A stretch of 34,053 bases of DNA from Candidatus Dormiibacterota bacterium. GTDB taxonomy: Bacteria > Acidobacteriota > Polarisedimenticolia > Gp22-AA2. The DNA lies in contig DASQAT010000036.1 of NCBI GenBank assembly GCA_035635555.1, positions 1 to 34,053 on the forward strand, in the 5' to 3' direction. The notes under the pieces were generated by a model. The model searched no databases. It saw nothing but the letters and a program-made list of their open reading frames with translations, and was not told the DNA's origin. Every line of letters starts with the position of its first letter. The first letter of the stretch is position 1. The translations under genes and the position numbers were made by a program. This document shows, piece by piece, positions 12,011-29,902 of the stretch.

Positions 12011-13430
12011 GTACCGCTTCGCCTCGATCGTCGTGGCCTTCATTCTCGGCGGGCTGACGGCTGTCGGCGTGGCCTCGCTCTACCGGGGCCGCCACCAGTC
12101 GGGCCTGGTCGCTTCGTCCGGCGTGAAGGCCGTCTATCACTGCCCGATGCACCCGAGCATGCAGTCCGACCGGCCGGCCGATTGTCCGATCTGCGGCATG
12201 CGGATGGTTCCAGTGGAGACGGCGGGGGCCACGCGCGCGCCGATGCCCAAGAGAGTGATCTACCGATCCACGATGAACCCTTCTGAAGTCTCGGACAAAC
12301 CGGGCAAGGATTCGATGGGAATGGAGATGGTGCCGGTCGAGATGCAGGAGCAGCCGGAGGAGACACCGCGGGTCGAGGGGCACGCGGTCGTGTCGATCCC
12401 GGCGACCAGGCAGCGACTCATCGGCGTCAGGACGCAGGTGGTCGAGAAGGCTCCCTTCATCCGCGAGATTCGCGCGCTGGGACGGGTCGCGGTCGACGAG
12501 ACCCGTCTGCATCACGTCCACACCAAGGTCGGCGGCTGGATCGAGACGCTCTACGCCCACGCCACAGGCGAGAAGGTCGTCCAGGGACAGCCTCTCCTGA
12601 GCATCTACAGCCCCGAGCTCGTTGCGTCGCAGGAGGAGTTCCTCGTCGCCCTCAGGGGCCGGAATGCCCTGGGGGAGGGGGTGCCTCCGGAGGCCGTGCA
12701 GCGGGCTGACGAGCTCCTCGAGAGCGCCCGCCGACGTCTGCTTCTCCTGGACCTGACGCCGGGGCAGATCCACCACCTCACCGAGACCGGGGAGGCATCG
12801 CGGGACCTCACCCTGTACGCCCCCATGTCCGGATACGTTCTGGCGCGCAATGTCACGCACGGCGAGCGGATTGAGGCGAATACGGCGCTCCTCGACATCG
12901 CCGACCTGTCGCGGGTCTGGGTGCTGGCGGCCGTCTACGAATACGAGGTCCCGTTCGTGAAGGTGGGACAGCCTGCGACCATGACACTTTCCTATCTGCC
13001 CGGGAAGGTACTGCGCGGTCGCGTGGGGCTGGTTTATCCGGTCCTCGACGCGGCCACGCGGACGGTGCAGGTCCGCCTCGAGTTTCCCAATCCCGGTCTG
13101 CAGCTGAAACCCGAGATGTACGCCGACGTGGAGCTCGAGAGCGACCTGGGACAAAGGCTGATCGTCCCCGAGACGGCGGTCCTTGCCACAGGCACGCGGG
13201 ACATCGTCTTCGTGGATCGTGGCGACGGAGCGTTCGAGCCGCGCGAGGTCCGCCTCGGGCTGCGTCTGCCGGAGGCCGTCGAGGTTCTGGCGGGGCTGGC
13301 CGAGGGGGAACGGATCGTGACCTCGGGCAATTTCCTGGTCGATTCAGAGTCGCGCCTCAAGGCGGCCCTGGAGAGTGCGGCCCGGCCCGCCCCGTTGGCG
13401 TCGCCGGAGGGCGGGACGAAGGAGCCGTGA
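11994..13430 (+). CDS. cusB: Efflux RND periplasmic adaptor subunit with heavy-metal-binding domain, CusB-like
   Basis: The start is GTG 11994, preceded by GGGAGG five nt away, inside the end of cusC; 478 residues. A TM/signal anchor (FASIVVAFILGGLTAVGVAS) is followed by a heavy-metal-binding domain with YHCPMHPSMQSD and CPICGMRMVPV (about residues 45-75), then a second module with IYRSTMNPSEVSD and GKDSMGMEMVPVE. The Cys, His and Met residues of both are typical Cu(I)/Ag(I) ligands. The remainder is a standard membrane-fusion protein: lipoyl halves (GGWIETLYAHATGEKV, LYAPMSGYVLARNVTHGE), a helical hairpin and beta-barrel domains. It links CusA to CusC and is thought to pass metal to the pump. 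Its stop overlaps the cusA ATG. Confidence 0.92.
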   Translation: MPSTARYRFASIVVAFILGGLTAVGVASLYRGRHQSGLVASSGVKAVYHCPMHPSMQSDRPADCPICGMRMVPVETAGATRAPMPKRVIYRSTMNPSEVSDKPGKDSMGMEMVPVEMQEQPEETPRVEGHAVVSIPATRQRLIGVRTQVVEKAPFIREIRALGRVAVDETRLHHVHTKVGGWIETLYAHATGEKVVQGQPLLSIYSPELVASQEEFLVALRGRNALGEGVPPEAVQRADELLESARRRLLLLDLTPGQIHHLTETGEASRDLTLYAPMSGYVLARNVTHGERIEANTALLDIADLSRVWVLAAVYEYEVPFVKVGQPATMTLSYLPGKVLRGRVGLVYPVLDAATRTVQVRLEFPNPGLQLKPEMYADVELESDLGQRLIVPETAVLATGTRDIVFVDRGDGAFEPREVRLGLRLPEAVEVLAGLAEGERIVTSGNFLVDSESRLKAALESAARPAPLASPEGGTKEP

Positions 13431-16400: not shown

Positions 16401-16687
16401 CGGTCCGTGCCGGGAGGATGCGGACGCGCGGGGACCTGCGCGAGGCGATCGTCCACGGCGCGGTGAAGCGCATCCGTCCGAAGATGATGACCGTGACGGC
16501 GGCGTTCATGGGCCTCATGCCGATCATGTGGTCGCTCGGGACCGGGGCCGACATGATGAAGCGCGTGGTCGCCCCGATGGTGGGCGGATTGGCCACCAGC
16601 TTCATCCTCGAGCTGCTCGTCTACCCGCCGATTTATGAGATCTGGAAGTGGCGTCACCTGCGTGGCGCAGCCAGGAGCTACCCGTGA
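13430..16687 (+). CDS. cusA: Heavy-metal efflux RND transporter, CusA/CzcA family (HME-RND)
   Basis: 1085 residues from ATG 13430, overlapping the cusB stop (TGATG). It is the inner-membrane proton-driven pump of the tripartite system. Family features in order: an N-terminal TM helix then NVPLDAIPDLSDTQVIVYS, the TM4 motif GVLVDGAIVEVENAYKK, the central porter segment VFGKAGRADTSTDPAPLSMF and MPIKNRTDMLSTGIRTPVGI, and the C-terminal TM group with RPKMMTV. Met residues in SMFETTI and TDMLSTG align with two of the three copper-site methionines of E. coli CusA as I recall that alignment; the third position (MPGLSVTEA here) is Leu, so monovalent copper/silver is likely but not certain. The last 10 bases overlap the convergent neighbour. 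Confidence 0.93.
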   Translation: MVERIIEFSAHNKFIVLVLTVVAVGMALYAMQNVPLDAIPDLSDTQVIVYSRWDRSPDIMEDQVTYPIITALLGAPKVKSIRGLSDFGFSYVYIIFQDGTDIYWARSRTLEYLSKIMPRLPEGVRTELGPDATGVGWVYQYALVDRKGLHDLAELRSFQDWYLRYWLQSVPGVAEVVSIGGFQKQYQVNVDPNALLAMKVPLQRVIEAIRQGNNDVGGRLVEFSGAEYMVRGRGYARSVSDLENIVVGGNDRGTPVLVRDVARVALGPDIRRGVVDLDGQGDTVGGIVVMRSGENALNVIHRVKEKIESVRPSLLPGVELVTTYDRSELIQRSIDTLKEELLLEMIIVSLVILVFLWHIPSAIVPIVTIPVSVVLAFIPMYFMGLTSNIMSLSGIAISIGVLVDGAIVEVENAYKKLQLWVASGRVADFHRVRLDALKEVGPSVFYSLLVIAVAFMPIFTLVDQEGRLFKPLAYTKTLAMAIAAVLAVTLDPAMRMLFTRMDRMDFRPRWLSRLTHQVVVGTYHPEEKHPISRILFRVYEPACRLVLEFPKTTIASALILVVLTIPVYVLLGSEFMPPLDEGSLLYMPTTMPGLSVTEAEKLLKTMDALIVEVPEVERVFGKAGRADTSTDPAPLSMFETTILLKPHDEWRKRPRFYSRWPEFLQAPLRHIWWDRINREDLVDELDRKLRFPGVPNIWTMPIKNRTDMLSTGIRTPVGIKIFGSDLAVIERIGAEVEGVVRSVRGTRSVFAERTAGGYFLDFDLKREALARYGLTIQDAQMVIQSAIGGETITTTVEGRERYTVNVRYAPELRDSLDRLQRVMVPTMSGAQIPLGQIADIRLTSGPAMIRDENGLLAGYVYVDVAGRDIGGYVEEARRAVADRVRVPTGYALQWSGQYENMLHVRERLKIVVPITLCLIFILLYLNMKSAVKAGIVMLAVPFSLVGAVWLLYLLGYNVSVAVGVGMIALMGLDAETGVFMLLFLDLAYDDAVRAGRMRTRGDLREAIVHGAVKRIRPKMMTVTAAFMGLMPIMWSLGTGADMMKRVVAPMVGGLATSFILELLVYPPIYEIWKWRHLRGAARSYP

Positions 16688-17856
16688 TGGTGGTGCTCCA
16701 TGCCCTTGGAGCCGAAGCGCAGTCTCAGAAACAACTGGGCCGACACCGGCCTTTCGCCGTAGACCGTGTCGAGCCTGTCGTCGAAGCGGTAGACGGTCAC
16801 CCCTGCCCCCAGGGCGGTCTCCGCTTCCGTCAAGAGCGGCAGGTCGCGCATGTAGCCGAGAGTCAGCGCGTCGACCGCGGTGCGGCGGGCCGGCACCGAT
16901 TCGGGGCGCTGCTCCTTGTTCAGGAGCTCGAACAGATCCCGATCCACCCTTTCGAGACGACCGTACACCGTGTGCTTCGTGGCGAACTTCCATGTCGCCT
17001 CGAGCGTGTTCCCCCACTCCACCAGGCCCCCCTCGAGGAGGTTGCGGCCGGCCACGAGCGTGGCCGCGACGAACCCCGCCGGGGCCGTCCGTTCATATTC
17101 GATCGAGGCGGTCTGACGGGTCTGATCCCCCTCCTCCAAGGCCTCGGGATGCTTCCGCCGCGCGGCCGAGACCTGGATGCGCAGCCCCGGCGCCGCCCGG
17201 AACCACACCCGGCCCGAGTAGGAGTCGAGACTCCCCTGCTCGATGTCCCAGCGGTTTTCGTCCGGCTCCTTTCCGTGGAAGATCGATCCCTCCGCGCTCC
17301 AGGGGCCGAGATCGATCCCGGTCGTGAGGACGTCGGCGGAGATGTGAGTCGAGTCCTGGTTGTGGTGTCCGAGGGGGGCCAGCGGATCGGCCGAGGCGGA
17401 CAGTCGGTGCACGTAGGTCGTCGGTCCCACCGCGGGCTCCCCCCAGGGGGCCACGTACACCCGGAATCTTGACCGCTTCGTGAGATCGCGGCTCCACTCC
17501 GCCGCGAGCTGCACGAAGAGATCGTGCGGATGCTGGCGGTCGACCAGCAGGACGTCCTTGTAGGTCTCGCCGCGCTGGAACAGCTCGGGCGACCCCTGCG
17601 GCGGCACGGTCAGCGGCTCGGCCGTGAACGTGCCGAGGAGCGTCAGGGTCCACTTCCCCGCCGGTCGCGTGGCGATCAGCATCAGGTGATTCTGGGATTC
17701 GAAGTCCTGGTCTCCCGAACGCCCTCCCTGCCGGTTGGAGGTCAGGAACGCCCAGCCGTGCATCATCAGAGTGAAGCGCGAGCCGCCTGTCGCGGCGCGG
17801 ACCCCGGCGCCGCCGGCCAGGAGGATCACGAGCGCGGCCACGACGGCTCGTCTCAT
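16678..17856 (-). CDS. Outer-membrane beta-barrel-like protein ending in a His cluster
   Basis: 392 residues with a signal peptide (MRRAVVAALVILLAGGAGVRA). The mature part is made of alternating amphipathic beta strands (FTLMMHGWAFLT, WTLTLLGTFTAEPL, RVWFRAAPGLRIQVSAAR, VSAQLFLRLRF) typical of a porin-like barrel. Several His-rich loops are visible (DRQHPHDLF, LGHHNQDSTHIS) and the extreme C-terminus is GMEHHHHG. I recognise it only as an uncharacterised type found near metal-efflux genes in related bacteria. The His clusters and its convergent 10-bp overlap with cusA suggest metal contact at the outer membrane, but this is inference. It is co-transcribed with the GT-C gene upstream (ATGA overlap), which is an odd pairing functionally. 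Confidence 0.65.
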   Translation of the reverse strand: MRRAVVAALVILLAGGAGVRAATGGSRFTLMMHGWAFLTSNRQGGRSGDQDFESQNHLMLIATRPAGKWTLTLLGTFTAEPLTVPPQGSPELFQRGETYKDVLLVDRQHPHDLFVQLAAEWSRDLTKRSRFRVYVAPWGEPAVGPTTYVHRLSASADPLAPLGHHNQDSTHISADVLTTGIDLGPWSAEGSIFHGKEPDENRWDIEQGSLDSYSGRVWFRAAPGLRIQVSAARRKHPEALEEGDQTRQTASIEYERTAPAGFVAATLVAGRNLLEGGLVEWGNTLEATWKFATKHTVYGRLERVDRDLFELLNKEQRPESVPARRTAVDALTLGYMRDLPLLTEAETALGAGVTVYRFDDRLDTVYGERPVSAQLFLRLRFGSKGMEHHHHG

Positions 17857-19547
17857 CGCCCCGGCGTCTCCGGGATGTCGTAGACATAGTAGGCGTGCCC
17901 GACGATCGCCGACAGCCGGGCGTGCAGCAGCCAGTTCTCCGGTCCGTCACCGTGCAGCTCGCGCAGTCGGGCGCGCGCCCGGGCCAGGATGTGGGCGCTC
18001 AGGACGTAGACGCCCGGCTGGGGAGGCGCGAGCAGGTCGTCCACCCGCACCCCCATCGCCTCAACACCGTAGGTCTCGGGACGGATGCTGCCGAAGTAGC
18101 CGAGCCGCAGCGGACCCTGCGGCGGATGGGCGGCGAGCCACGTTCTCAACTGCTTCATCCCCTGTCCCCAGTCGACGTTGCTGTCGTCGAGCCAGCGCGG
18201 ACCGCAGCGCCAGCCGCCGTCGAGGCCGAGACGCGACGGCTCCGTCACGCAGGCCAGCTCGTTGAAGTATGACAGGTGATCGGGGTAGATGGCGGTCCCC
18301 GCCACGACCGCCCAGACCGACAGGACTGCGGCGACGGCCCTTCGCCAGACGCCCCCCTCCCGCACCAGGAAGGCGAGACCCGCGCCCCCGGCCAGATGCA
18401 GAAAAGGGAGCACCGGGATGAGGTAGCGGAAGCCGAGATTGTCCGAGTAGATCGAATAGGCGAGGAAGAGGGCCAGCGGCGGGAGGAACAGGAAGGCACG
18501 GTCCATGTCCGGCAGCGCTCCGCGGCGCAGCACCGCCCACCCCCCGATCGCGGCCAGTGCTATCGCCGGCAGCGGCTCCTTCACGAGGTAGCAGACGAGG
18601 TAGTAGGTCAGGAAGTGCGGCTTGAAGGCGCCGGCCATGAACGCCTGATACGTCGGGTCGTGGTCGGCGTTGATGCGGCGGACCCCTTCGACGTACAGGA
18701 ACGGGTTGCGCGGGAAGAGGTAGACGGCCTCGATGACGAGCGCCGCCAGGACAGCCATCGCCAGGAACGCATAGACGCACCAGACGAGCCGCTGACCGCC
18801 GTCCTCCGAGGCGAACGGGTCGACCAGACTCGAGGATCGGATCGGCGCCTCGGCCGGGATCCACCGTGTCGCCAGGATCAGGAGCGCCAGCGCCACCGGC
18901 AGGAGGATCAACGCCGAAAACTTGGTCGCGAGCATCAGCCCCAGAGCGAGGCCGCACAGGACGAGACGCTTCGGGCTGCGGTGATTGAGATACCACCACA
19001 GCGCGAACAGGGACAGGACCGTGAACGCGGCGAACCCGGAGTCCGTGGCGACCAGCGGAGCGTGCGCCAGGATGTTCGGATCGAAGACATACAGGAGGAG
19101 CGCGCCGGTCGCCGCCGTCGCTCCCAGGAGTCTCCTGCCCCAGGCGAAGATCAGGCCGCCGAGCAGGACCGCCAGCAGGATGAACGGCAGACGCGCCCGG
19201 AACATCACGCTGTTCGGATTGTTCCCGAAGATGACATCGCGGCCGAGCTGCCACTGGAAGAACACCGGCGGCGGGTCGCCGACGTTGTCCCAGTCCGCTC
19301 GCGTCATGGGAAAACGGGCTCCGGTCAGGACGAGCGGCAACGCGCCCAGCTCCTTGAGGAGGGGCGGATGCTGCGGGTTGACCCTGAAGTCGCGCATCGT
19401 CCAGTACGACAGACCGGCGCCGATGTGCGCCGGCTCATCGAAGGTCGGGGACTTGATCGGACTGGCCGTGATCATCTGCAGGAAGAAAACGGCGAGCAAC
19501 AGCCACAGCAGCAGCGGGTGCCCCTGACCCGCGGAACGCCTCGTCAT
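17853..19547 (-). CDS. GT-C fold glycosyltransferase, PMT-like (divergent paralogue A)
   Basis: A 564-residue polytopic membrane protein from ATG 19547. A short basic N-terminus precedes TM1 (LLLWLLLAVFFLQMI); the first periplasmic loop has PTFDEPAHIGAGLSYW and VNPQHPPLLKELGALP, where the acidic DEP and the HPP motif are characteristic of dolichyl/undecaprenyl-phosphate-sugar-dependent GT-C enzymes. About ten TM helices follow, with HLSYFNEL and WLDDSNVDWGQGMKQL near the C-terminal soluble part. It is clearly homologous to the divergently transcribed gene at 19631, sharing these motifs in order. Likely activity is transfer of a lipid-linked sugar at the periplasmic face; the acceptor is unknown. 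An extended -10 (TGCTAGGAT) ends seven nt before the ATG, so translation is probably leaderless. Confidence 0.8.
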   Translation of the reverse strand: MTRRSAGQGHPLLLWLLLAVFFLQMITASPIKSPTFDEPAHIGAGLSYWTMRDFRVNPQHPPLLKELGALPLVLTGARFPMTRADWDNVGDPPPVFFQWQLGRDVIFGNNPNSVMFRARLPFILLAVLLGGLIFAWGRRLLGATAATGALLLYVFDPNILAHAPLVATDSGFAAFTVLSLFALWWYLNHRSPKRLVLCGLALGLMLATKFSALILLPVALALLILATRWIPAEAPIRSSSLVDPFASEDGGQRLVWCVYAFLAMAVLAALVIEAVYLFPRNPFLYVEGVRRINADHDPTYQAFMAGAFKPHFLTYYLVCYLVKEPLPAIALAAIGGWAVLRRGALPDMDRAFLFLPPLALFLAYSIYSDNLGFRYLIPVLPFLHLAGGAGLAFLVREGGVWRRAVAAVLSVWAVVAGTAIYPDHLSYFNELACVTEPSRLGLDGGWRCGPRWLDDSNVDWGQGMKQLRTWLAAHPPQGPLRLGYFGSIRPETYGVEAMGVRVDDLLAPPQPGVYVLSAHILARARARLRELHGDGPENWLLHARLSAIVGHAYYVYDIPETPGR

Positions 19548-19554
19548 GGCGCGC

Positions 19555-19563
19555 ATCCTAGCA
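19555..19563 (-). promoter_or_regulatory. Extended -10 directly before GT-C paralogue A
   Basis: The minus strand reads TGC-TAGGAT with the hexamer ending seven nt before the ATG at 19547. No -35 is recognisable. If used, transcription would begin at or next to the A of the start codon. The AGGA inside it could alternatively act as a weak Shine-Dalgarno at 8 nt spacing. Confidence 0.4.
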
Positions 19564-19575
19564 TGGGCTCCGCGG

Positions 19576-19604
19576 TTGACGGTCCCGGGGCCGTGCAGTA
19601 GCAT
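19576..19604 (+). promoter_or_regulatory. Sigma-70-type promoter of GT-C paralogue B
   Basis: TTGACG (19576-19581), a 17-nt spacer and TAGCAT (19599-19604). The -35 differs from consensus at one position. The predicted leader is about 20 nt long before ATG 19631. The -35 lies next to the opposing -10 for paralogue A, so the two genes share a very short control region. Confidence 0.55.
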
Positions 19605-19630
19605 CGCGCGTTTCCGGACCCTGCGCGCTC

Positions 19631-21466
19631 ATGGCGAAAGAACAGCCGAGTATCCAGAACGAGACCGGGGCTCCGGGCGGCGGCGACCCCTGGGAGAAGC
19701 GCGCCGGTCCGGCCGCACTGGCTCTCCTGGCGCTCCTCGCCCTGCAGGGCCTTCTGTTCATCGGCGAGTCGTCGCAGACGAGCGACGAAGCGGTGCACAT
19801 CGCCGCCGGCTACTCGTACCTCGAGAGCGCGGATTTCCGCCTCAATCCCGAGCATCCGCCGCTCATCAAGGAGTGGGCGGCGCTGCCCCTCCTCCTGCTC
19901 CGCCTGCAGTTTCCCTGGGGACCGCTCTGGGACCAGGCGGAGGAATGGAACATCGGGCGGATCTTCGTTCACGAGAACCGGATCCCGAACGACATGATCC
20001 TTTTGGTCGGGAGGCTGCAGGTCCTGATCCTGTCCGGTCTGCTCGGATGGTTCCTGTTCCGCTGGGGCCGGGCCCTGTTCGGCGCGCGCGGCGCCCTTCT
20101 CGCCCTGGCGCTCTACGTCCTCGACCCGAACGTCGTGGCGCACTCGTCGCTCGTCACGACCGACCTCGGTGTGACCCTGTTCATATTTCTCGCCGTCTAC
20201 GCGCTGTGGGCCTGGTCGGAGCGACCCGGCCCGGCGCGTGTCCTGTGGTGCGGTCTGGCGGTCGGCGGCGCCTTCGCGTCGAAATTCACCTCCTTCTGGC
20301 TGCTGCCGATTCTCCTCCTCCTGCTCGTGGTCCTGTTCGCGCTGCGCACGCCGCTCTCCTCCCGGTCCCGGGTCCTCCCCCTGCTCGTCCTGGCGGCGTG
20401 CGTGGCCGTCGTCGCGTTCGCGGTCGTCGCGGTCACCTATGCGGGCGTGGGCATGAAGGCCTACGTCGTCGGCCTGGAGCGCGGTCTTCATCACTCCGGA
20501 ATGGGACACAAGGCCTACATGATGGGTCAGTACTCCGAGGACGGATGGTGGTACTACTTTCTCTATGCCTACCTGGTCAAGACACCGATCGGGACCCTTC
20601 TCATCGTGGCCGCCTCGATCGCGGCCTTTCTCCTGGGCCGGCGGGGCCGTCTCAAGGACGAGCTCTTCGTGGGGATCCCGATCGTCGTTCTCGTGCTGAT
20701 CACCTGTCTGTGGAAGGTGAATATCGGTCTGAGGCATCTCCTGCCGGTCTATCCATTTCTGTACCTCGCCGCCGGACGGCTCCTGGCGCCGCCGGGCGGG
20801 GCGGCGGCGCGCCGGCCCCGTGCGGCATGGGCGATCGCCTCGGGGGTCCTCGCCTGCCTGGCGTGGAACGTGGTCGAGGCGGCGAGCATCGCCCCCTACC
20901 ACCTCGCCTACTTCAACGAGCTGGTGGGCGGACCGCGCCAGGGTCACCTCTATCTGCTCGACTCGAACCTCGACTGGGGACAGTCGTCGAAGGCGCTGCG
21001 CCGGTACGTGGAGTCCGAGAACCTGCCGATCATCTACTGCGCCTACTCGGGAAACGGCGACCCCTGGTACTACGGCGTGCGCTACCAGTACGCCCCCGGG
21101 TCGGGGAACCTGGACAACGCCAAGGAGCGGCCCGTGCGGGTTCCGGATGGCCTGCCGCGCGAGGTCCTGGCGGTGAGCGCCATGGTCCTGCACTCGGTGC
21201 ATTTCAGCGACACCGAGGTGTGGGCCCCCCTGCGCCGGCAGAAGCCGATCGCCATGCCCGGATACTCCTACTTCGTCTTCGACATCACCCGCAACGCCGA
21301 CGCCCACGCTTACATCGCCGCGCTCTACCTGAGCTTCGGGATGGACGATCTGGCCGACTACGAGGCCCACCGCACGCTACGGCTCGACCCGAAGAGCGCC
21401 GTGGCGCTCGCCGTCCTGGACAAGCTTAAGGAGAAGACGGCACCGCCCGGCGCGCCCGGCGGTTAG
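19631..21466 (+). CDS. GT-C fold glycosyltransferase, PMT-like (divergent paralogue B)
   Basis: 611 residues. TM1 (AALALLALLALQGLLFIG) is followed by QTSDEAVHIAAGYSYLES and LNPEHPPLIKEWAALP, the counterpart of the acidic and HPP motifs of paralogue A. About ten further TM helices follow, and the C-terminal part contains HLAYFNEL and LLDSNLDWGQSSKALRRY. A C-terminal extension with a TPR-like pair of helices (AYIAALYLSFGMDDLADYE, HRTLRLDPKSAVALAVLDK) distinguishes it from paralogue A. The expected role is periplasmic transfer of a sugar from a polyprenyl-phosphate carrier to protein or glycan. It faces the TMTC-like gene with only 8 nt between stop codons. Confidence 0.82.
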   Translation: MAKEQPSIQNETGAPGGGDPWEKRAGPAALALLALLALQGLLFIGESSQTSDEAVHIAAGYSYLESADFRLNPEHPPLIKEWAALPLLLLRLQFPWGPLWDQAEEWNIGRIFVHENRIPNDMILLVGRLQVLILSGLLGWFLFRWGRALFGARGALLALALYVLDPNVVAHSSLVTTDLGVTLFIFLAVYALWAWSERPGPARVLWCGLAVGGAFASKFTSFWLLPILLLLLVVLFALRTPLSSRSRVLPLLVLAACVAVVAFAVVAVTYAGVGMKAYVVGLERGLHHSGMGHKAYMMGQYSEDGWWYYFLYAYLVKTPIGTLLIVAASIAAFLLGRRGRLKDELFVGIPIVVLVLITCLWKVNIGLRHLLPVYPFLYLAAGRLLAPPGGAAARRPRAAWAIASGVLACLAWNVVEAASIAPYHLAYFNELVGGPRQGHLYLLDSNLDWGQSSKALRRYVESENLPIIYCAYSGNGDPWYYGVRYQYAPGSGNLDNAKERPVRVPDGLPREVLAVSAMVLHSVHFSDTEVWAPLRRQKPIAMPGYSYFVFDITRNADAHAYIAALYLSFGMDDLADYEAHRTLRLDPKSAVALAVLDKLKEKTAPPGAPGG

Positions 21467-21480
21467 CGGCGGCGCTACCG
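21460..21480. terminator. Bidirectional hairpin formed by two convergent stop codons
   Basis: An 8-bp stem with one bulged T: CGG-TAGCG (21460-21468) pairs with CGCTA-CCG (21473-21480) around a 4-nt loop. The TAG of the plus-strand gene and the TAG of the minus-strand gene (CTA on plus) pair with each other inside the stem. There is no U-tract. Confidence 0.45.
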
Positions 21481-23658
21481 GGGAGGGTGTTCGCCCTTGG
21501 CACCGCGGCGCAGCGAACCGAGGAGGGAGAGCGCGGTCGCGTCCATCACGCTCCCCTTGGAATCGAGGGACGCGGCGCGCTCGAGCGCTTCGAGCGCGCC
21601 GGTGCTGTCGCCCAGGCGCGCCAGGAGCAGACCGAGTCCCTTCATGGGGAACGGGGCGGTGGGGGCCAGGCGGATCGCCACGCGGTACTGCGCTGCAGCG
21701 TCCTGAAGTTTGCCCGACTGCTCGAGCCCGCGCGCGAGGTGGTAGCGGTAGACCGGGTGCTCCGGACGCGTCGCGATCGCCTGCCGGAGCGCGGAGATCC
21801 CCCCCTCCGTGTCGCCGGCATCGAGGAGGGCCAGACCGAGGGCGTCGAGGAGATCCGCATCTCCTGGACGGACGAGGAGCGCGCTCCGGAAGGTCGCGGC
21901 GGCGCCCGGGTCGTGCGCTTCGAGCTGCGCGACGCCGAGATTGCGCAGGTAGTCGGCGTTCGCCGGCTCCAGCCGCACGGCCTCGGCGTAAGCGGTGAGG
22001 GCCGCCCGGGTGTCGCCGGCGGCCAGCTCGACCGCCCCCAGGTCCGTGTAGGCGAGGACGCTCCGGCGATCGAGGCCGATGGCCCGGTGCAGGAACTCGC
22101 GCGCCTCGTCCCGCCGGTCGAGAGCCGCCAGACTGTGGGCCAGGTTCACCAGGTACTGCACGTTGCCGGGCTGCTGGCGCAGCGCCTCCCGGTAATGATC
22201 GATCGCCGCCGGCAGCATCTTCCGCCGCGCCAGGACGCCGGCGAGGTTGTAATGCGCGTCGGCGTAGTCGGGCCAGACCGCGATCGCCTTCTCGTAGGCG
22301 TCGATGGCCGATCCGTCGTCCCCCCGCTCTTCGCAGGCCGCCCCGAAATTGAACAGGACCCTGACGCTTTCGGGCGCGACCCGGAGCGCCGCCTTGAAGA
22401 TCGTGTAGTCGTCGCGCCAGTCCCGCAAGCGCACGACGCTTTGGACCGAGAGCGCCACGACGACGAGCCCCGCCGCGCACGACGCGGCGACGGCAAGTGC
22501 CTTGACCGGCGCGCGCCGCGCGGCGGCCAGCGCGGACGCCAGCGCGATGCAGACGCCGGCGGACGGAAGGTAGAGGAGACGCTCCGCCATGATCGTGCCG
22601 ATCGGGACCACGAGATTCGCGACCGGTGCGAATGCCACACCCGCGAAGGCCAGCGCGAAGGCCGAGCCGGGCGCGCCCTTGCGCGTCCGGGCAAGGAGAA
22701 CGGCCCAGGCGAGAATGCACGCGGCGCCGACGAGAGCCCCGGGGTCGAGCGGACCCGTGGCGGGCGGGATCGTGCGGAACGAATAGTCGATCGACAGCCG
22801 CGCGGGCCACGCGAGGAGTGAGGCGTAGCGCGCCAGGACCGCGAGCGCGGTCGATTTCGCCTGCAGGAACGGCAGGTGCGCGATCGGATTATCGACGAAA
22901 TGGATGGGACCGGGATTGAGCCCCCCCAGGACGGCGAAACGCAGAGCGAAGAGGGACGCCAGGACGGCGCACGAAACGGCGTGGAACCCCCAGGCGGGCC
23001 GTCTCCGCACGACCCACAGGTCGGCCAGCAGCAGGAGCGCGGGCGCGACCACCCCGTTCTCCTTCGACAGGAAGGCGAGAACGAACAGCGCCAGCGACAT
23101 CGCGGCCAGGCCGGGGCGGACCACGGCCCCGCCTCCCGCTACCTCCGTCTCCCGGGCGCGCAGGAACACGAGAACCGAGCCGAGGAGGAAGACCGCCGCC
23201 AGGAGCTCCGCCCGTCCGACGATCTCGCCAAGGACCTCCGTGTGCACCGGGTGGACGGAAAACAGGAGCGCCGCGAACACGGGACCGTCCAGGACCGCTC
23301 CAGGCGCCGGGCCCGTCTGCGGCAGCACCCGCCGGGCCAGGATGAGGACCAGGATGGCATTGAGCGTGTGCAGGAGAAGGTCGACCAGGCGGAAGCCGAG
23401 CGGTCGCAGGCCGTGCACGGTCCGCCCGATCGCGAACGACAGGATGGTGACCGGCCTGTACAGGTTCGGCACCTGCACGTCGCCGGTGCTCCAGTAGCCG
23501 CTCCTGAAGATCTCCGGCACGTGCCTCAGGTCGGAGGTCAGGCCGTTCTGCTCGATGATCCGATGATCGTCGTGGATGAAGCCGGGACGGAGAGCCCCCA
23601 GGTTCACCAGGACGCAGACAACCGCGATGAGAAGGACCTGGCGCGAGCGGACGCTCAC
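21475..23658 (-). CDS. TMTC-like GT-C glycosyltransferase with C-terminal TPR repeats
   Basis: 727 residues from GTG 23658, which overlaps the sulfatase-like stop (GTGA). The N-terminal half is a polytopic membrane domain; the first loop contains FIHDDHRIIEQN with the paired acidic residues seen in TMTC/PMT-type GT-C enzymes, followed by NLYRPVTILSFAI. From about residue 415 the protein switches to eight or nine tandem TPR repeats (for example VRVLFNFGAACEERGDDGSA, YADAHYNLAGVLARRKMLP, PVYRYHLARGLEQSGKLQD). This matches bacterial relatives of TMTC protein O-mannosyltransferases, where TPRs bind substrate protein on the periplasmic side. It is the last gene of a fully overlapping three-gene operon with a DUF362 protein and the sulfatase-fold lipoprotein. 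Confidence 0.85.
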   Translation of the reverse strand: MSVRSRQVLLIAVVCVLVNLGALRPGFIHDDHRIIEQNGLTSDLRHVPEIFRSGYWSTGDVQVPNLYRPVTILSFAIGRTVHGLRPLGFRLVDLLLHTLNAILVLILARRVLPQTGPAPGAVLDGPVFAALLFSVHPVHTEVLGEIVGRAELLAAVFLLGSVLVFLRARETEVAGGGAVVRPGLAAMSLALFVLAFLSKENGVVAPALLLLADLWVVRRRPAWGFHAVSCAVLASLFALRFAVLGGLNPGPIHFVDNPIAHLPFLQAKSTALAVLARYASLLAWPARLSIDYSFRTIPPATGPLDPGALVGAACILAWAVLLARTRKGAPGSAFALAFAGVAFAPVANLVVPIGTIMAERLLYLPSAGVCIALASALAAARRAPVKALAVAASCAAGLVVVALSVQSVVRLRDWRDDYTIFKAALRVAPESVRVLFNFGAACEERGDDGSAIDAYEKAIAVWPDYADAHYNLAGVLARRKMLPAAIDHYREALRQQPGNVQYLVNLAHSLAALDRRDEAREFLHRAIGLDRRSVLAYTDLGAVELAAGDTRAALTAYAEAVRLEPANADYLRNLGVAQLEAHDPGAAATFRSALLVRPGDADLLDALGLALLDAGDTEGGISALRQAIATRPEHPVYRYHLARGLEQSGKLQDAAAQYRVAIRLAPTAPFPMKGLGLLLARLGDSTGALEALERAASLDSKGSVMDATALSLLGSLRRGAKGEHPPR

Positions 23659-25130
23659 GGCTTCTTGCCGCCCACGTAACCCAGGGACCGGAGGTCGTCC
23701 TCAAGTCCGGGCGGCACGGGCGGCTCGTCCCGATCGTCCTTCGAGGGGTCGCCCGCCACGAGATCGAGCAGGGCGCGGCGGAGGGCCTGCTCCTCCACGG
23801 GGAACTTGCCGAGGACATTCGCCGTCTCGCCGGGATCCGACTGGAGATCGTAGAACTCCCAGATCGGACCGGAGGATTTCGCGGGGATCATGATGAGCTT
23901 GAAGCGGTCGCTCCTCATCATGCGCCACTTCCCGGCAATACCGTCGACGTACTGCCGCGGGTTCTCCCGGTAGAAGTTCCGGCCCGATTCCGAGTACGCC
24001 GGCGGCGCCGGTCCCGTGGTCCTCCCGAGCATCCTCGGCAGGAGACTCGCGCCCTGCAGTCCGGCCGGGATCGGGATACCCGCGATGTCCAGGACGGTCG
24101 GGACGATGTCGATCGTGCGGGCCTGCGCCGCGACCACCTCGCCCGCCGGCAGGGACGGCGGGTAGCTGAGGATGAGCGGCACACGCACGGTCGCCTCGTA
24201 GAGATAGGCCCCGTGCTCGAAGAAATAGTCGTGCTCCCCGAGACTCTCGCCGTGGTCGGCGGTGAGGACCACGAGTGTTGTCGACAGGAGGCCCATCGAT
24301 TCCAGATCGCTCAGGAGCTCCCCGGTCGCCTGGTCCGCGCAGGCCACCTCGCCGTCGTAGTGGGCCACGGCATGCGCGACCTCGCGCTCCGGCAGGCGCT
24401 TCTTGCCGAAGATGATGTCACCGCGCTCCACCCCGGGCCCCGCCTCCTCGTTGAACGTGTGCGCCCCCTTGTACTGCGGGTCGAACATCTCGGTGTAGGG
24501 GGCGGGGGCGATGTACGGCCAGTGCGGCGCGTTGTAGCGCAGCCACAGGAAGAAGGGGGCGTCCTTGCGCTTGCGGTTCCGCAGCCATTGCGCCGCCTTG
24601 CGCGTGGCGTCGCTGTCGCTCTTCGTCGGCAGGTAGACTTTTTTCCCGTTCGGATCGATGTAGATGTCCGGATCGTACATGTCGAAGTCGCGGTGCAATC
24701 CCACGTTGAGACCCTGCGTCACGGCGAACGACTCGTAGCCGTGATCCTTGAGCACGCGGGTCAGCGTGAGGCGATCCCCCAGGACTTCGTAGCTCTGCCC
24801 CTCGTAGCGCAGACCGTGCGTCATCGGATAGACCCCCGTCAGGATCGACGGGAACGACTGCACGGTCCGGCCCGCGGCCGTGATGGCGGTCCTGAACACG
24901 ACTCCGCGCCGGGCCAGGGTGTCGATGGACCGGCTCGTCGGTCGCGTGTAGCCGTAGCAGCCGAGGTGGTCGGGGCGCAGGGTGTCGACGGTGATCAGAA
25001 GGACGTTCGGCCTGCCGCCGGGCGCGGGCGCGGCCGGCGCGCGGCCGCAGCCGGCGAGCGAGAGGAGGAGAGTCGCCGCGACGACGAGCCGATCGATGGA
25101 GCGGCGTGCCGCGCTTTCTTTGTCAGGCAT
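23655..25130 (-). CDS. Sulfatase-fold (alkaline phosphatase superfamily) lipoprotein with Thr at the nucleophile position
   Basis: 491 residues with a clear lipoprotein signal: LLLSLAGC, Cys28. The sulfatase domain starts at PNVLLITVDTLRPDHLGCYG with the metal-binding Asp49. The second metal site is TADHGESLGEH and the C-terminal part has the family's FKLIMIP and DLQSDPGETAN motifs. In classical sulfatases the segment before LTG is CxPSR with a formylglycine Cys; here it reads TVQSFPSILTG, placing Thr89 at that position. This matches Thr-using relatives such as phosphoethanolamine or phosphoglycerol transferases rather than true sulfatases. It probably modifies a periplasmic or surface substrate. 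Its ATG overlaps the DUF362 stop by 8 nt and its stop overlaps the TMTC-like GTG. Confidence 0.85.
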   Translation of the reverse strand: MPDKESAARRSIDRLVVAATLLLSLAGCGRAPAAPAPGGRPNVLLITVDTLRPDHLGCYGYTRPTSRSIDTLARRGVVFRTAITAAGRTVQSFPSILTGVYPMTHGLRYEGQSYEVLGDRLTLTRVLKDHGYESFAVTQGLNVGLHRDFDMYDPDIYIDPNGKKVYLPTKSDSDATRKAAQWLRNRKRKDAPFFLWLRYNAPHWPYIAPAPYTEMFDPQYKGAHTFNEEAGPGVERGDIIFGKKRLPEREVAHAVAHYDGEVACADQATGELLSDLESMGLLSTTLVVLTADHGESLGEHDYFFEHGAYLYEATVRVPLILSYPPSLPAGEVVAAQARTIDIVPTVLDIAGIPIPAGLQGASLLPRMLGRTTGPAPPAYSESGRNFYRENPRQYVDGIAGKWRMMRSDRFKLIMIPAKSSGPIWEFYDLQSDPGETANVLGKFPVEEQALRRALLDLVAGDPSKDDRDEPPVPPGLEDDLRSLGYVGGKKP

Positions 25131-26265
25131 GCCGAGCGGGGACGCCGGCGGAACCGGGCACGACGCCCGCCTTGTCCCGGGGTCCGCCGTAGCGTTCGTC
25201 GAACAACCGGCCCCATTCCGTCCCGCGGAAGCGGGCGATCTTGGCCCGCCCGATGGTCGGGTACCACAGGAGATCGTGATAGAAGTTGGACGCCGCCGGC
25301 GCCCAGACGACGAGCGGAGAGTGCAGGGCGATCTTCTCCAGGAAGCGCAGCGGCCCCTTCCGGAGCATCTGGTCTCCCCAGATCACGAGCGAGCGCGACA
25401 CCTTGAAATGCAGGTTCAGCCCGCTGATGTCGTCTCCGACCAGATCGATCTCGCGCGGGTCGGCCACGCCGAGCCGCTTGTCGTGGCACATCCGGAGATA
25501 CGGGATCGACATCGGATCGAACCCCATGATGCGGGCCGCCACGGAATCGATCGCCACCGAATCGGCGCCCGCCAGGATGACGTTGCCGACCACCGGGTCC
25601 ATCGTGCGCGGCCCTGCGCCGTTGCCGCAGACCGTGCCGTCCATCGCCGTGAAGATCCCCGGGTGCAGCTCCTTCTGCATCGACACCAGGTCGACCAGCA
25701 CCTCGTGCATGTGCTTGTGGGCGTAGTGCCGGACCTCCTTCAGGAGACCGCCGAAGGAGTTCTTGATCGACCCCGTGGTGATCGCGTGTCCGTGGGTCTT
25801 CACCGTGGGCAGGTGGACGATGTTCTTGCCCGGGTACATCGCCGGGATCTGGATCCCTTCCGGGAAGATGTCGTTCAGCTTCAAGAGAGGCGTCTTGAAC
25901 TTGAAGACGCGCCACTCGACCTCCGGGAGCGCCGTGAACCGGAGCCCGAGCGAATCGAGCACCGGGAGCCAGCGATTGTTCCGGGCTCCCTTCCACGGAT
26001 CGGTGACCACGGTCTTGTTCTCGGCCGGCAGGATACGCGCCCGGTCGTAGCCGTCCTCGAGCATCGCCTTGAGCACCCCCTCGACCTGCCACGGCTGGCT
26101 GGAGCAGGCCGGGAAGTACTTCGTCCAGGAGAGATTGAGCTTGATGATCGTCGGGATGGCCGGGTCGATGACGGATCGGTACGAGGCCAGCCGCATGAGA
26201 CGGCCGTAGTCCTCGACGACCGTTTGCGGCCGGGTGCGCAGGACGGCGATTTTCGGACGGGGCAT
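25123..26265 (-). CDS. DUF362 domain-containing protein
   Basis: 380 residues from ATG 26265, with GGGAGGA upstream. The protein shows the DUF362 pattern: IIKLNLSWTKYFPACSSQPW near the start, NIVHLPTVKTHGHAITTGSIKNSFG (positions about 165-190) with the conserved Lys/His, DLVSMQKELHPGIFTAMDG, and VILAGADSVAIDSVAARIMG. Many DUF362 proteins carry a ferredoxin-type cluster domain; none is present here, as the few Cys residues are scattered. The biochemical role of the family is not established. The gene overlaps the downstream sulfatase-fold lipoprotein gene by 8 nt and thereby links to the TMTC-like enzyme, so a role in modifying or supplying a surface glycan is possible but unproven. Confidence 0.8.
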   Translation of the reverse strand: MPRPKIAVLRTRPQTVVEDYGRLMRLASYRSVIDPAIPTIIKLNLSWTKYFPACSSQPWQVEGVLKAMLEDGYDRARILPAENKTVVTDPWKGARNNRWLPVLDSLGLRFTALPEVEWRVFKFKTPLLKLNDIFPEGIQIPAMYPGKNIVHLPTVKTHGHAITTGSIKNSFGGLLKEVRHYAHKHMHEVLVDLVSMQKELHPGIFTAMDGTVCGNGAGPRTMDPVVGNVILAGADSVAIDSVAARIMGFDPMSIPYLRMCHDKRLGVADPREIDLVGDDISGLNLHFKVSRSLVIWGDQMLRKGPLRFLEKIALHSPLVVWAPAASNFYHDLLWYPTIGRAKIARFRGTEWGRLFDERYGGPRDKAGVVPGSAGVPARHA

Positions 26266-26350: not shown

Positions 26351-27274
26351 CTAGGCCGAGGTCCGGCCCAGGTAGAGGAGGACGATGACGGTCAGGGACC
26401 AGAGGCCGACGCACAACAGGAGAGGCCGGTCGGACAGGAGGGCCTGCGTCGGGTTCCCGCCGGCCCCCTTCTGGTGGACGAGAAACAGGTAGCGGAAGAT
26501 TCCGTACAGGACGAAAGGGACCGTCAGGTAGAGGTGGCTCGTGCCGAGCTTCTCCTGCACCTCGGGCGAGACGGAGTAGAGGATGTAGGTCACGAGCGTC
26601 GAGGGCGTCACCACGTTGATCATCTGGTCGATGAACTCCAGCGAGTAGTCCCGCAGGCTCGACCGATGGCTCGGCGCGTTCGCGAGGCTTTCCAGCTCCT
26701 GGCGTCTCTTGCACAGTGCCAGGAAGAGTGACAGCAGGATCGTGCACATGATGAGCCAGTGGGAGATCGGCACGTCGATGATCAGGGCGCCGCCGACGGC
26801 GCGCAGGACGAACCCGGAGGCGATGACCATGACGTCGATGATCACGACCTCCTTCAGCCAGAACGAATACACCAGGTTGACCACGACGTAGGCCAGGAGC
26901 ACCGCTCCGAACGGCGGGGACAGGGCGAACGCCGCCATGAGCGCACCCGTGATGAGGAGGATGGCGGCGGTGACGGCGGGCAGCGTGCCGAGCGCCTTCG
27001 AGGCGATCGGTCGCCGGGCCTTGACCGGATGCTTGCGGTCGCGATCGGCGTCGAACAGATCGTTGACGATGTACACCGCGCCGCTGGCGCAGCAGAACAG
27101 CCCGAACGCGGCCGCCGCGCGCTCCAGGGACGGCAGGAACATCAGCTTCTTGGCGAAGATGAGGGGCGCGAACACGACGAGGTTCTTGATCCACTGGCGC
27201 GGGCGCATCGACACGACGATGCCGGCCAGGACGGACGCGCGGGACGTCCAGAAATCCACGGCTCTTTTCGGCAC
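26351..27274 (-). CDS. UbiA-family prenyltransferase, decaprenyl-phosphate phosphoribosyltransferase-like
   Basis: 307 residues from GTG 27274, with GGGAGGA eight nt upstream. The protein has about eight TM helices. MRPRQWIKNLVVFAPLIFA opens the domain; the first Asp-rich motif is VNDLFDADRDRKHPVKARRP and the second region YSFWLKEVVIIDVMVIASGF contains the second acidic motif. The KNLVVFAPL opening and the RKHPVKARRPIA sequence are those of the DPPR synthase (Rv3806c-like) branch of UbiA, which joins phosphoribose from PRPP to a polyprenyl phosphate as the first step to decaprenyl-phosphoryl-arabinose, a donor for GT-C arabinosyltransferases. No epimerase genes (DprE1/2) are visible here. It is divergent from a GT2 enzyme and lies 85 nt upstream of the DUF362 operon on the same strand. 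Confidence 0.82.
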   Translation of the reverse strand: MPKRAVDFWTSRASVLAGIVVSMRPRQWIKNLVVFAPLIFAKKLMFLPSLERAAAAFGLFCCASGAVYIVNDLFDADRDRKHPVKARRPIASKALGTLPAVTAAILLITGALMAAFALSPPFGAVLLAYVVVNLVYSFWLKEVVIIDVMVIASGFVLRAVGGALIIDVPISHWLIMCTILLSLFLALCKRRQELESLANAPSHRSSLRDYSLEFIDQMINVVTPSTLVTYILYSVSPEVQEKLGTSHLYLTVPFVLYGIFRYLFLVHQKGAGGNPTQALLSDRPLLLCVGLWSLTVIVLLYLGRTSA

Positions 27275-27358: not shown

Positions 27359-28069
27359 ATGCAAGTCGCCGTCGTCATCCCCGCCCGCAACGAAGCCGCG
27401 TCGCTTCCGCTGGTTCTCGACGCGATCCCGAGGCACCTCGTGGACGAGGTCGTGGTGGTGGACAACGCCAGCACGGACGGCACGGCGGAGGCCGCGCTGG
27501 GGCGCGGGGCGATCCTGCTGCGCGAGCCGCGGCGGGGTTACGGCTCCGCCTGTCTGCGCGGTCTCGAGCACCTACGGGCGAGGCGGCCGGACGTCGTCGT
27601 GTTCCTGGACGCAGATTACAGCGATCACCCGGAGGAGATGGCGCTCCTCCTCGAGCCGATCGAGCGCGGCCAGGCCGACCTGGTGATCGGATCGCGCGTC
27701 CTCGGAACCAGGGAACGCGGGGCGCTTCTTCCCCAGGCCCGCGTCGGGAACTGGGTGGCGACGCGCCTGATACGCGCTTTCTACGGCGGACGCTTCACCG
27801 ACCTCGGCCCGTTCCGGGCGGTCCGCTTCGAGGCGCTCGAGCGTCTCGGGATGGCCGACCGCGATTTCGGCTGGACGGCGGAGATGCAGGTGAAGGCGCT
27901 TCTGGCCGGGCTGCGCGTGCGCGAGGTGCCGGTCTCCTACAGGCGCCGCGTCGGCACCTCGAAAATCACCGGGACCCTGTGGGGAACGCTGCGGGCGGGG
28001 GCCAAGATTCTGTGGACCATCGGCAGGAACCTGTTCCCGCGACAGGCCAGGCCCGGAAGCCCCGTCTAG
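27359..28069 (+). CDS. Family 2 glycosyltransferase (GT2)
   Basis: 236 residues. It is a single cytosolic GT-A domain: VAVVIPARNEAASLPLVLDA at the N-terminus, VDNASTDGT nucleotide-sugar contact, VVFLDADYSDHPEEM with the metal-binding DxD, IGSRVLG, then DLGPFRAVRFEAL and the acceptor-side motif DFGWTAEMQVKAL. The basic C-terminal part (YRRRVGTSKITGTLWGTLRA) resembles that of DPM1-like polyprenyl-phosphate glycosyltransferases but without a TM tail. It probably builds a polyprenyl-phosphate sugar or glucosylates a lipid carrier, which could feed the several GT-C enzymes in this window. The 3' end overlaps the convergent xdhC-type gene by 4 nt. Confidence 0.85.
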   Translation: MQVAVVIPARNEAASLPLVLDAIPRHLVDEVVVVDNASTDGTAEAALGRGAILLREPRRGYGSACLRGLEHLRARRPDVVVFLDADYSDHPEEMALLLEPIERGQADLVIGSRVLGTRERGALLPQARVGNWVATRLIRAFYGGRFTDLGPFRAVRFEALERLGMADRDFGWTAEMQVKALLAGLRVREVPVSYRRRVGTSKITGTLWGTLRAGAKILWTIGRNLFPRQARPGSPV

Positions 28070-28950
28070 GAGGAGGGGCGCGCCCGGCGGCCGAACGGTT
28101 CCGCCAAAACCGGGAGCTCAAGCGCCCGGACCTCGTGGGCGCTCCGCCTGGGGGCGCGGGCGGCCTCGGCCGCCGGCGACGCGTGACGCACGGCGATCAT
28201 CTCGGCGGCGATGCTCACGGCGATCTCCTCGGGCGATTCCGCGCCGATCGCCAGGCCGATGGGCCCGCGGACTTCGCGCAGGTCCTGGGGGGACGCCCCC
28301 ATCTGCCCGGCCCGCTCGAGGACCGTCCTGACCTTGCGACGGCTGCCGATGAGACCGACGTACGCGGCGCCCCTGCCGACGGCGTGGCGCACCGCCGCGA
28401 GGTCCGTCTTGTGGCAGCGCGTCACGACCGCCACGTACACCCCGGGAGGTATCTCGGGAAGCCCGGCCGAGAAGTCGTGCCCGGCGCGCAGGAGACGCAC
28501 CCCGCCCGGGTAGCGCTCCTCTTCCAGATACGACGGTCGATCGTCGACCACCGTCACCTCGAACCCCAGACGCGCTGTCAGGTGGGCCAGCTCGCGGCCG
28601 ACGTGCCCCCCGCCGAAGATGAAGAGCGGCAGAGGCGGAGTCACCAGCTCGAACAGCACTCGCGCCAGCCCGCCGCACACCATGCCGGTGGCCTCGTCCC
28701 CCTGCTCCGTGAACCGGTACTCCTTTTCGAAGCCGCGCCCGGTCTTCATCACCTCTTTGGCATCCTCGATCACCAGCGCCTCGAAGGCGCCGCCGCCGAT
28801 GCTGAAGAAGGTCTCCCCCGAGTCGCACACGATCATCTTCGCTCCGGTGCGGCGCGGCGTGGATCCGTGGCTCGAGCTCAGCGTAGCGACGACGAGCACG
28901 CGTCCGGCGCGCAGGAGCCTGGCCACCTCGTCGTAGAACGCGAGCGTCAC
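28066..28950 (-). CDS. XdhC/CoxI family protein
   Basis: 294 residues from GTG 28950. The N-terminal XdhC domain has VLVVATLSSSHGSTPRRTGAKM split across the usual strand-loop and GMVCGGLARVLFE with the conserved Cys that in XdhC is linked to molybdenum-cofactor handling. A C-terminal Rossmann domain begins LFIFGGGHVGRELAHLTARLG, with EVTVVDDRP, and YVGLIGSRRKV follows. XdhC proteins bind sulfurated molybdopterin and deliver it to xanthine dehydrogenase or CO-dehydrogenase-type enzymes. No xanthine dehydrogenase, CoxL or moa/moe gene is present in the window, so the client enzyme is elsewhere. It follows the HEAT-repeat gene closely on the same strand (stop and start one nt apart). Confidence 0.88.
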   Translation of the reverse strand: MTLAFYDEVARLLRAGRVLVVATLSSSHGSTPRRTGAKMIVCDSGETFFSIGGGAFEALVIEDAKEVMKTGRGFEKEYRFTEQGDEATGMVCGGLARVLFELVTPPLPLFIFGGGHVGRELAHLTARLGFEVTVVDDRPSYLEEERYPGGVRLLRAGHDFSAGLPEIPPGVYVAVVTRCHKTDLAAVRHAVGRGAAYVGLIGSRRKVRTVLERAGQMGASPQDLREVRGPIGLAIGAESPEEIAVSIAAEMIAVRHASPAAEAARAPRRSAHEVRALELPVLAEPFGRRARPSS

Positions 28951-28951
28951 G

Positions 28952-29902
28952 TCAGTGTCTCGCGGCGGACGACTTCTGGCTGGTCTGCCACCAGCGCGAC
29001 CATTCCTCGGGGCGCGGTCCGTACGGCTGGCCGCTCACCTGGCGCAGCGCGTCGAGCGCCACCTGCCGATTCCCCTCGTCCTTGGTCTTGAGCTGTTCGA
29101 TGAGGAAGGGGACCGGCGAGGGGTTCTTGAACCGGCTGAGCTGGCCCAGCGCCGCGCTGCGGAGATCCTTGGACGGATCGGACGAGGCCATGGTCTCGAT
29201 GAGCCCCTCCACGGAGGGGTCGTCCTGAAGCTGCAGCGCCGAGAGGACCTCGCTGCGTACCTCCTCGGAGGGGTGGGTCAGGAGCGCTTTCAGACCGTCG
29301 AGGGACTCGCGGGTGCGGAACATCCCGAGCGCCTGCGTGGCGGCGCGCGCCACGTCGATCTCCTGGCTCGCCGACGCCGTCTTCAGGAACGGGATCCCTT
29401 TCGGGTCGCGCAGCGCTCCCAGCGCGTAGCAGGTGGCGGCGCGGACATCGGGCGGCTGTCCATCCATCCCCTTGACGAGCAGGTCGAGGCCCTCCGGGTC
29501 GCCTCCATTGAGTGCTATCAGGTGGGCCACCAGGATGCGGCTGTCGCTCTCCTCGCTCGTGGCCTTCATCCGGATGGGGTTGTACGGGATCATGCTCCTC
29601 TTCTCGATGCGGAGGAGATCGCGCAGCGCGGCCTTGGCCTCCGGCTGCGTCATGCGCGCCAGGTAGAGGATCGACGGCGCGCGGTGGGTCTTCACCGGGC
29701 TCTCGACCCCGCGCAGGAAGACGTCGTACCTCCCCTCGTGGATGATCTTCTCGATCTTCTCCTCGGCGTCCTGGCGCTCTTCACTGTCGTTGCTCTGGAG
29801 TTTGCTGTACAGGTCCTGGACGTCGTAGGCGGGGGCGCAGGACAGACATGCGGCCGCGAGGCCCGCCAGCGTCCACGCGACGAACGCCGCCCGCGTCTTC
29901 AT
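28952..29902 (-). CDS. HEAT-repeat lipoprotein
   Basis: 316 residues. The signal peptide MKTRAAFVAWTLAGLAAACLSC has two candidate lipidation Cys residues (LAAAC and CLSC); the mature start is APAYDVQDLYSKLQS. The body consists of HEAT/PBS-lyase-like helical repeats: SPVKTHRAPSILYLARM, PDVRAATCYALGALRDP, IDVARAATQALGMF, EEVRSEVLSALQLQDD, KDLRSAALGQLSRFKNP and GNRQVALDALRQVSG. Such solenoids are scaffolds for protein-protein contacts; no catalytic residue pattern is visible. It sits between greA (ATGA overlap at its start) and the XdhC gene. Location is probably periplasmic and membrane-anchored, function unknown. Confidence 0.8.
   Translation of the reverse strand: MKTRAAFVAWTLAGLAAACLSCAPAYDVQDLYSKLQSNDSEERQDAEEKIEKIIHEGRYDVFLRGVESPVKTHRAPSILYLARMTQPEAKAALRDLLRIEKRSMIPYNPIRMKATSEESDSRILVAHLIALNGGDPEGLDLLVKGMDGQPPDVRAATCYALGALRDPKGIPFLKTASASQEIDVARAATQALGMFRTRESLDGLKALLTHPSEEVRSEVLSALQLQDDPSVEGLIETMASSDPSKDLRSAALGQLSRFKNPSPVPFLIEQLKTKDEGNRQVALDALRQVSGQPYGPRPEEWSRWWQTSQKSSAARH

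Follow-up and report, generated by a model that had tools for sequence, protein, structure and literature searches.

The window analysed here is the whole stretch of 34,053 nucleotides (nt) of contig DASQAT010000036.1 (GenBank assembly GCA_035635555.1, Candidatus Dormiibacterota bacterium, placed by GTDB in the Acidobacteriota). Three overlapping genes on its minus strand encode a DUF362 protein (P0001; 25123–26265), a sulfatase-fold lipoprotein (23655–25130) and a TMTC-like GT-C membrane protein with TPR repeats (21475–23658). An earlier note on this DNA had described the arrangement, and we confirm it, with overlaps of 8 nt between the DUF362 and sulfatase-fold genes (ATGCCTGA) and of 4 nt between the sulfatase-fold and TMTC-like genes (GTGA). 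The DUF362 gene starts with an ATG at 26265, has the ribosome-binding site GGGGAGG, matches Pfam DUF362 with 79.9 bits and contains no ferredoxin domain. On the same strand, 85 nt upstream, lies a gene for a UbiA-type polyprenyl-phosphate phosphoribosyltransferase (PPPRS/DPPRS; 26351–27265, start approximate). Short gene overlaps are frequent in bacterial operons, so the overlaps alone weigh little. The widely conserved unit is the UbiA–DUF362 pair, not the triplet, and the DUF362 protein is a candidate enzyme of nickel-pincer nucleotide (NPN) chemistry.

The window's proteins were used to search 40 regions around DUF362 relatives from a set of 120 related genomes. The DUF362, sulfatase-fold and TMTC-like genes occur together in all eight genomes of the window's own family, f1 (the window and G001–G007; the contigs of G004 and G005 are short). 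In the sister family f2 (G008–G011), no genome of the four has this arrangement. The earlier note had staked its reading on conservation of the triplet in relatives; this holds throughout family f1 and fails in family f2 and in the other loci fetched from the same DUF362 clade (clade A). The triplet as a conserved unit was rejected on account of this restriction. Of the 19 fetched loci with at least 62% DUF362 identity, 17 have UbiA beside DUF362, as do the contig-split G005 and the window, and UbiA is kept in 19/20 clade A genomes among the 120 relatives (own genome and G005 counted; the exception is G099). A survey of DUF362 neighbours, proposed in the earlier note, thus found the upstream UbiA gene widely kept and the triplet not.

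Among 80 loci of named genomes, UbiA is the immediate upstream same-strand neighbour of DUF362 in 45, which span about eight phyla; loci of this kind come from Acidobacteriota, Aminicenantota, Myxococcota, Krumholzibacteriota, Latescibacterota, Elusimicrobiota, Pseudomonadota, Zixiibacteriota and Actinomycetota. One contig labelled Acidimicrobiia (L109) carries a DUF362 nested among those of Acidobacteriota on a very short branch and is probably mis-binned. Mapped on a quick DUF362 tree, the UbiA label requires 11 changes, compared with a mean of 28.8 after shuffling. At genome level, with a threshold of 200 bits for UbiA, the enzyme occurs in 44 of the 49 genomes that have a clade A or B DUF362 (>290 bits) versus 19 of 71 without one; G005 was scored from its two halves and the partial G033 was excluded.

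The UbiA protein passes NF008977, the NCBIfam decaprenyl-phosphate phosphoribosyltransferase model, with 285.6 bits (cut-off 234), and a sequence comparison with solved structures at E 0.001 finds only 8j8j and 8j8k from Mycobacterium tuberculosis (8j8j at 1.1e-38). Eleven residues of Rv3806c that contact phosphoribosyl pyrophosphate (PRPP) were taken from passages of the structure paper (PMC10994848); nine are identical in the window UbiA and the other two are conservatively replaced (Q135N and Y157F). The protein is predicted to transfer ribose-5-phosphate from PRPP to polyprenyl phosphate. Enzymes of this type belong to three-component pentofuranose systems, which the searched text of PMC11127046 describes as a PPPRS, a flippase and a GT-C enzyme, with epimerases optional; that text makes no mention of DUF362. 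Three GT-C-type proteins lie near the UbiA–DUF362 pair in the window, and no flippase was recognised next to it there. DMT-type transporters lie upstream of UbiA at seven loci of Aminicenantota and relatives (L096, L101, L110, L121, L134, L138 and L140) and downstream of DUF362 in family f2 and in G018 (L039, L041 and L042). Two of them matched amine/amino-acid exporter models of NCBIfam below cut-off; a transporter that flanks the pair in two lineages is possibly a lipid-sugar flippase.

The predicted AlphaFold model of the DUF362 protein has a predicted local distance difference test score (pLDDT) of 83.8. Structure comparison with Foldseek and VIA-align places the LarA family at the top, with Z scores of 14.8–16.2 over 209–241 residues; LarA-family entries are the only ones above Z 6, the next unrelated entry scoring 5.9. 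DUF362 and the LarA domain already share one Pfam clan, and LarA workers have used DUF362 as an outgroup (passages of PMC11770544). A broad alignment of 27 diverse DUF362 sequences contains twelve invariant residues, including His158, Lys168 and His183, all three of which are also invariant in 42 clade A rows and in 23 rows of clades A and B. The profile of this alignment matches a profile of 18 LarA proteins in hhalign (E 2.1e-5, probability 77), whereas an unrelated sulfatase alignment, run as a control, gives E 0.65 (no match). The match pairs His158 with LarA His174, Lys168 with Lys184 and His183 with His200 (Lactobacillus plantarum numbering, counted on the alignment), which in LarA are a catalytic base, the lysine that tethers the cofactor and the nickel ligand, respectively (passages of PMC7583248 and PMC12611868). 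This residue match is the new element beyond the shared clan.

The cofactor pathway is encoded in the same genome, where LarB, LarC and LarE score 291, 218 and 280 bits, all above cut-off. Among the 120 relatives, LarC accompanies DUF362 without LarA in 30 of 35 genomes and LarA without DUF362 in 13 of 15, so that DUF362 follows the NPN cofactor as tightly as LarA does; the corresponding counts are 40/44 for genomes with both and 4/26 for those with neither. LarC occurs in 39 of 50 clade A genomes, mostly from other phyla (38 above cut-off); for LarB the count is likewise 39, in a second set of 50 that overlaps the first. In a control set of 14 genomes, DUF362 and LarC occur without LarA in Synechococcus elongatus and Haloferax volcanii and together with it in T. 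maritima and M. acetivorans, and C. glutamicum and M. jannaschii encode LarC but no LarA or DUF362. LarC without LarA or DUF362 also occurs in G017, G061, G087 and G098, where a further NPN client may exist. According to the available text of PMC11796402, about 9% of genomes have LarA and the pathway, about 15% have larB, larE and larC without larA, and the NPN of cyanobacteria is probably loaded into a protein still to be identified; a possible unknown nickel-pincer enzyme in H. volcanii is noted as an open issue in passages of PMC8305020.

We consider it probable, from the fold, the alignment and the invariance of the three residues, that DUF362 binds NPN. Our central proposal, an NPN enzyme role for DUF362 in concert with the PPPRS, is tentative and held with somewhat less than even confidence. 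The functional core would be UbiA and DUF362, with UbiA placing ribose-5-phosphate from PRPP on polyprenyl phosphate. In DUF362, Lys168 would hold NPN, His183 would be the nickel ligand and His158 the acid/base; the enzyme would take a hydride off a sugar carbon and then return it, inverting one centre of the lipid-linked pentose as a hidden-redox epimerase. Such chemistry fits, since DprE1/DprE2 turn ribose into arabinose through an oxidation and a reduction, and NPN enzymes invert a carbinol centre by taking a hydride away and giving it back. DUF362 might be a one-enzyme counterpart of DprE1/DprE2. The modified lipid-pentose would then be consumed outside by GT-C enzymes. The substrate is the weakest step of the proposal, and a polyprenyl-linked pentose as the substrate of clade A is, taken by itself, doubtful. 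Distinctly doubtful is the widest form of the idea, in which DUF362 overall supplies the missing NPN clients of genomes with larB/C/E and no larA, such as the controls S. elongatus and H. volcanii, and this clade is an NPN-dependent polyprenylphosphoryl-pentose epimerase replacing DprE1/DprE2. A search of the own genome for DprE1 with PF04030 found one protein, on another contig, which reads like a sugar-lactone oxidase.

A number of observations weigh against these proposals. DUF362 could be an NPN enzyme for a soluble sugar acid or hydroxyacid, its adjacency to UbiA reflecting a shared surface-glycan region and not one pathway. The known NPN enzymes described in passages of PMC7583248 act on α-hydroxyacids. 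UbiA is not the immediate neighbour of DUF362 in 35 of the 80 named loci; 16 of the 80, in exopolysaccharide (EPS) loci, have instead an XrtA-system polysaccharide deacetylase (the one tested scores 335 bits, above the cut-off of 276), and 19 have neither, several of these with little upstream sequence. UbiA is also present in the 19 of 71 genomes without a clade A or B DUF362 noted above, and known PPPRS systems function without DUF362 (available text of PMC11127046). Among DUF362 relatives at 42–50% identity, UbiA is nearby in 0/21 loci (L051–L071). Such a soluble substrate nevertheless fits poorly with an immediate same-strand UbiA neighbour across about eight phyla, and we regard it as unlikely.

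The 16 deacetylase loci, mostly from Zixiibacteriota, have DUF362 directly downstream of the deacetylase, and upstream there is often a tyrosine autokinase together with an export protein (L082, L084, L085, L087, L089, L092, L099, L103, L112, L114, L116, L127, L129, L130, L132 and L146). In the distant relatives at 42–50% identity, the aligned sequences read ISWHFFFP or ISWHFFYP, not LSWTKYFP, and no common neighbour was found at their loci.

Other points concern LarA features and the cofactor genes. LarA His108, the first catalytic histidine, aligns with Thr88 of DUF362, so that only one of the two LarA catalytic histidines is kept; LarA Arg75 has no positional match, with the invariant Lys42 and Asn44 nearby. 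PF09861 (Lar_N) has no match in the own genome, which thus has no LarA of this family and whose single DUF362 is P0001. The narrow clade A profile alone does not match LarA, which we attribute to its low diversity. LarC is absent from nine of 79 DUF362 genomes, among them G052, G107 and G112, which are 99–100% complete; the exception rate is similar for LarA, with six of 59 genomes lacking LarC. Neither LarB nor LarC was found in six of 51 clade A genomes (LarB and LarC sets joined), and in the control Bacteroides ihuae DUF362 occurs without LarC or LarB above cut-off. Finally, the association of DUF362 with LarC within LarA-less genomes has p 4e-8 (p 0.003 by family, in a table compiled by hand that omits genomes without a printed family code, all from the neither cell), both from presence lists put together by hand; because the genomes are related, these p values are inflated and overstate independence.

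DUF362 might keep the LarA fold and the His/Lys/His triad without NPN, serving for example as the missing 5′-phosphatase or as another factor that processes the UbiA product. The near-complete genomes with DUF362 and no LarC would suit such a role, as would the need of a stand-alone UbiA for an enzyme that removes the 5′-phosphate: none was identified for the UbiA product, and a look for a phosphatase at 39 clustered UbiA loci without adjacent DUF362 showed no consistent enzyme, although these clusters were not run through family models. Against such a role, it is exactly the NPN-binding lysine and the nickel-ligand histidine that are invariant, LarC tracks DUF362 as closely as it does LarA, and no phosphatase motif was seen. 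We judge a cofactor-free DUF362 unlikely, and prefer the reading as an NPN enzyme that acts together with the PPPRS.

The sulfatase-fold lipoprotein has a lipobox LAGC (by eye) and matches Pfam Sulfatase with 167.5 bits, plus SGSH_C. Thr89 occupies the nucleophile column of solved sulfatases, ten positions ahead of the glycine of the TG motif, which bears out the earlier note on this point; its placement is by alignment, since the predicted model (five sequences, pLDDT 51) was too poor to use. The AAGRTVQSFPSILTG stretch is identical across five aligned orthologues. The protein reads T89-V-Q-S-F where formylglycine enzymes have C/S-x-P-x-R, and a formylglycine (S1) sulfatase was rejected because the C-x-P-S-R motif is absent. 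Thr89 is not a special mark, because six of the seven strong sulfatase-family matches of the genome have threonine at the nucleophile position and the Thr type is the norm there; the seventh and sole CAPSR match is L153 (G000 C39:65046-65996). The TMTC-like protein has clear TPR repeats and matches TMTC_DUF1736 with 26.9 bits, just below the cut-off of 27.

The earlier note had drawn from these genes a pathway for surface glycoproteins, with the TMTC-like enzyme as protein glycosyltransferase, the Thr-type enzyme as the one that attaches phospho-groups and DUF362 as an integral part. This accords with the tight overlaps, the triplet in 8/8 family f1 genomes and the alignment of Thr89 but is highly improbable given the absence of the triplet from family f2 (0/4), the prevalence of Thr-type enzymes in the own genome and matches to NCBIfam phosphoethanolamine-transferase models that fall far below the cut-offs. 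What stands of that interpretation, which is partly supported as a whole, is a polyprenyl-linked surface-glycan setting, indicated by the phosphoribosyltransferase upstream, the GT-C enzymes around it and the EPS genes beside DUF362 in relatives; the coupling of DUF362 to a glycoprotein pathway with phospho-decoration is not supported. The sulfatase-fold and TMTC-like genes would rather be a local add-on to UbiA–DUF362 in family f1, joined downstream as extracytoplasmic users or editors of the lipid-pentose.

The other two GT-C proteins of the window are of the PMT_2 type, one a convergent neighbour on the plus strand (19631–21466) and one on the minus strand (17853–19604); two such proteins, one per strand (17853–21466 in the window), lie near the operon in several family f1 genomes. 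An AglJ-like GT2 glycosyltransferase (27359–28069, plus strand) scores 126.6 bits, below the cut-off of 325. An XdhC-family protein and a HEAT-repeat protein (28066–29902), upstream of UbiA on the same strand, are kept in families f1 and f2. Positions 10706–17856 read, by eye, as a heavy-metal efflux set with an outer-membrane factor, a membrane-fusion protein with a YHCPMHP motif and an RND pump.

The earlier note described DUF362 as without an established role, and this holds in the literature searched, although a concrete role can now be proposed. Apart from the outgroup use in PMC11770544, no published link of DUF362 to NPN or to polyprenyl was found, subscription papers and preprints being outside the scope; PMC10892978, which we did not read, contains both words, DUF362 and polyprenyl. 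For genomes that make NPN and have no known user, DUF362 is a concrete and widespread candidate with named residues. If the proposal is correct, the reach of nickel-pincer chemistry would widen beyond hydroxyacids, possibly as far as lipid-linked sugars, and a role would be given to a large domain of unknown function. For cell-envelope biology it would then point to a different solution from DprE1/DprE2, which is known as an antituberculosis target.

Compared with the LarA superfamily of NPN-dependent racemases and epimerases (PF09861), DUF362 shares the predicted fold, the NPN lysine, the nickel-ligand histidine, the second catalytic histidine and co-occurrence with LarB/C/E, and differs in having no PF09861 match, a threonine for the first catalytic histidine, no positionally kept Arg75 and no hydroxyacid context. 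A catalytic histidine is missing from some LarA homologues too, but it is the other one than in DUF362 (passages of PMC12611868). The window UbiA resembles mycobacterial DPPR synthase Rv3806c and the C. youngae PPPRS in passing the NCBIfam cut-off and in nine of the 11 PRPP contacts; those enzymes are accompanied by a phosphatase together with DprE1/DprE2, or have a HAD phosphatase fused to them, whereas the next gene here is DUF362. With the three-component pentofuranose systems, as portrayed in the available text of PMC11127046, the locus has in common a PPPRS and GT-C enzymes, and DMT-type transporters flank the pair in relatives, although no flippase was recognised beside the pair in the window. 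The sulfatase-fold protein shares with the Thr enzymes of the alkaline-phosphatase superfamily (EptA, LtaS) the threonine at the nucleophile position, with transferase models scoring far below cut-off, and the TMTC-like protein, its TMTC domain just below cut-off, has the GT-C and TPR layout of eukaryotic TMTC1–4.

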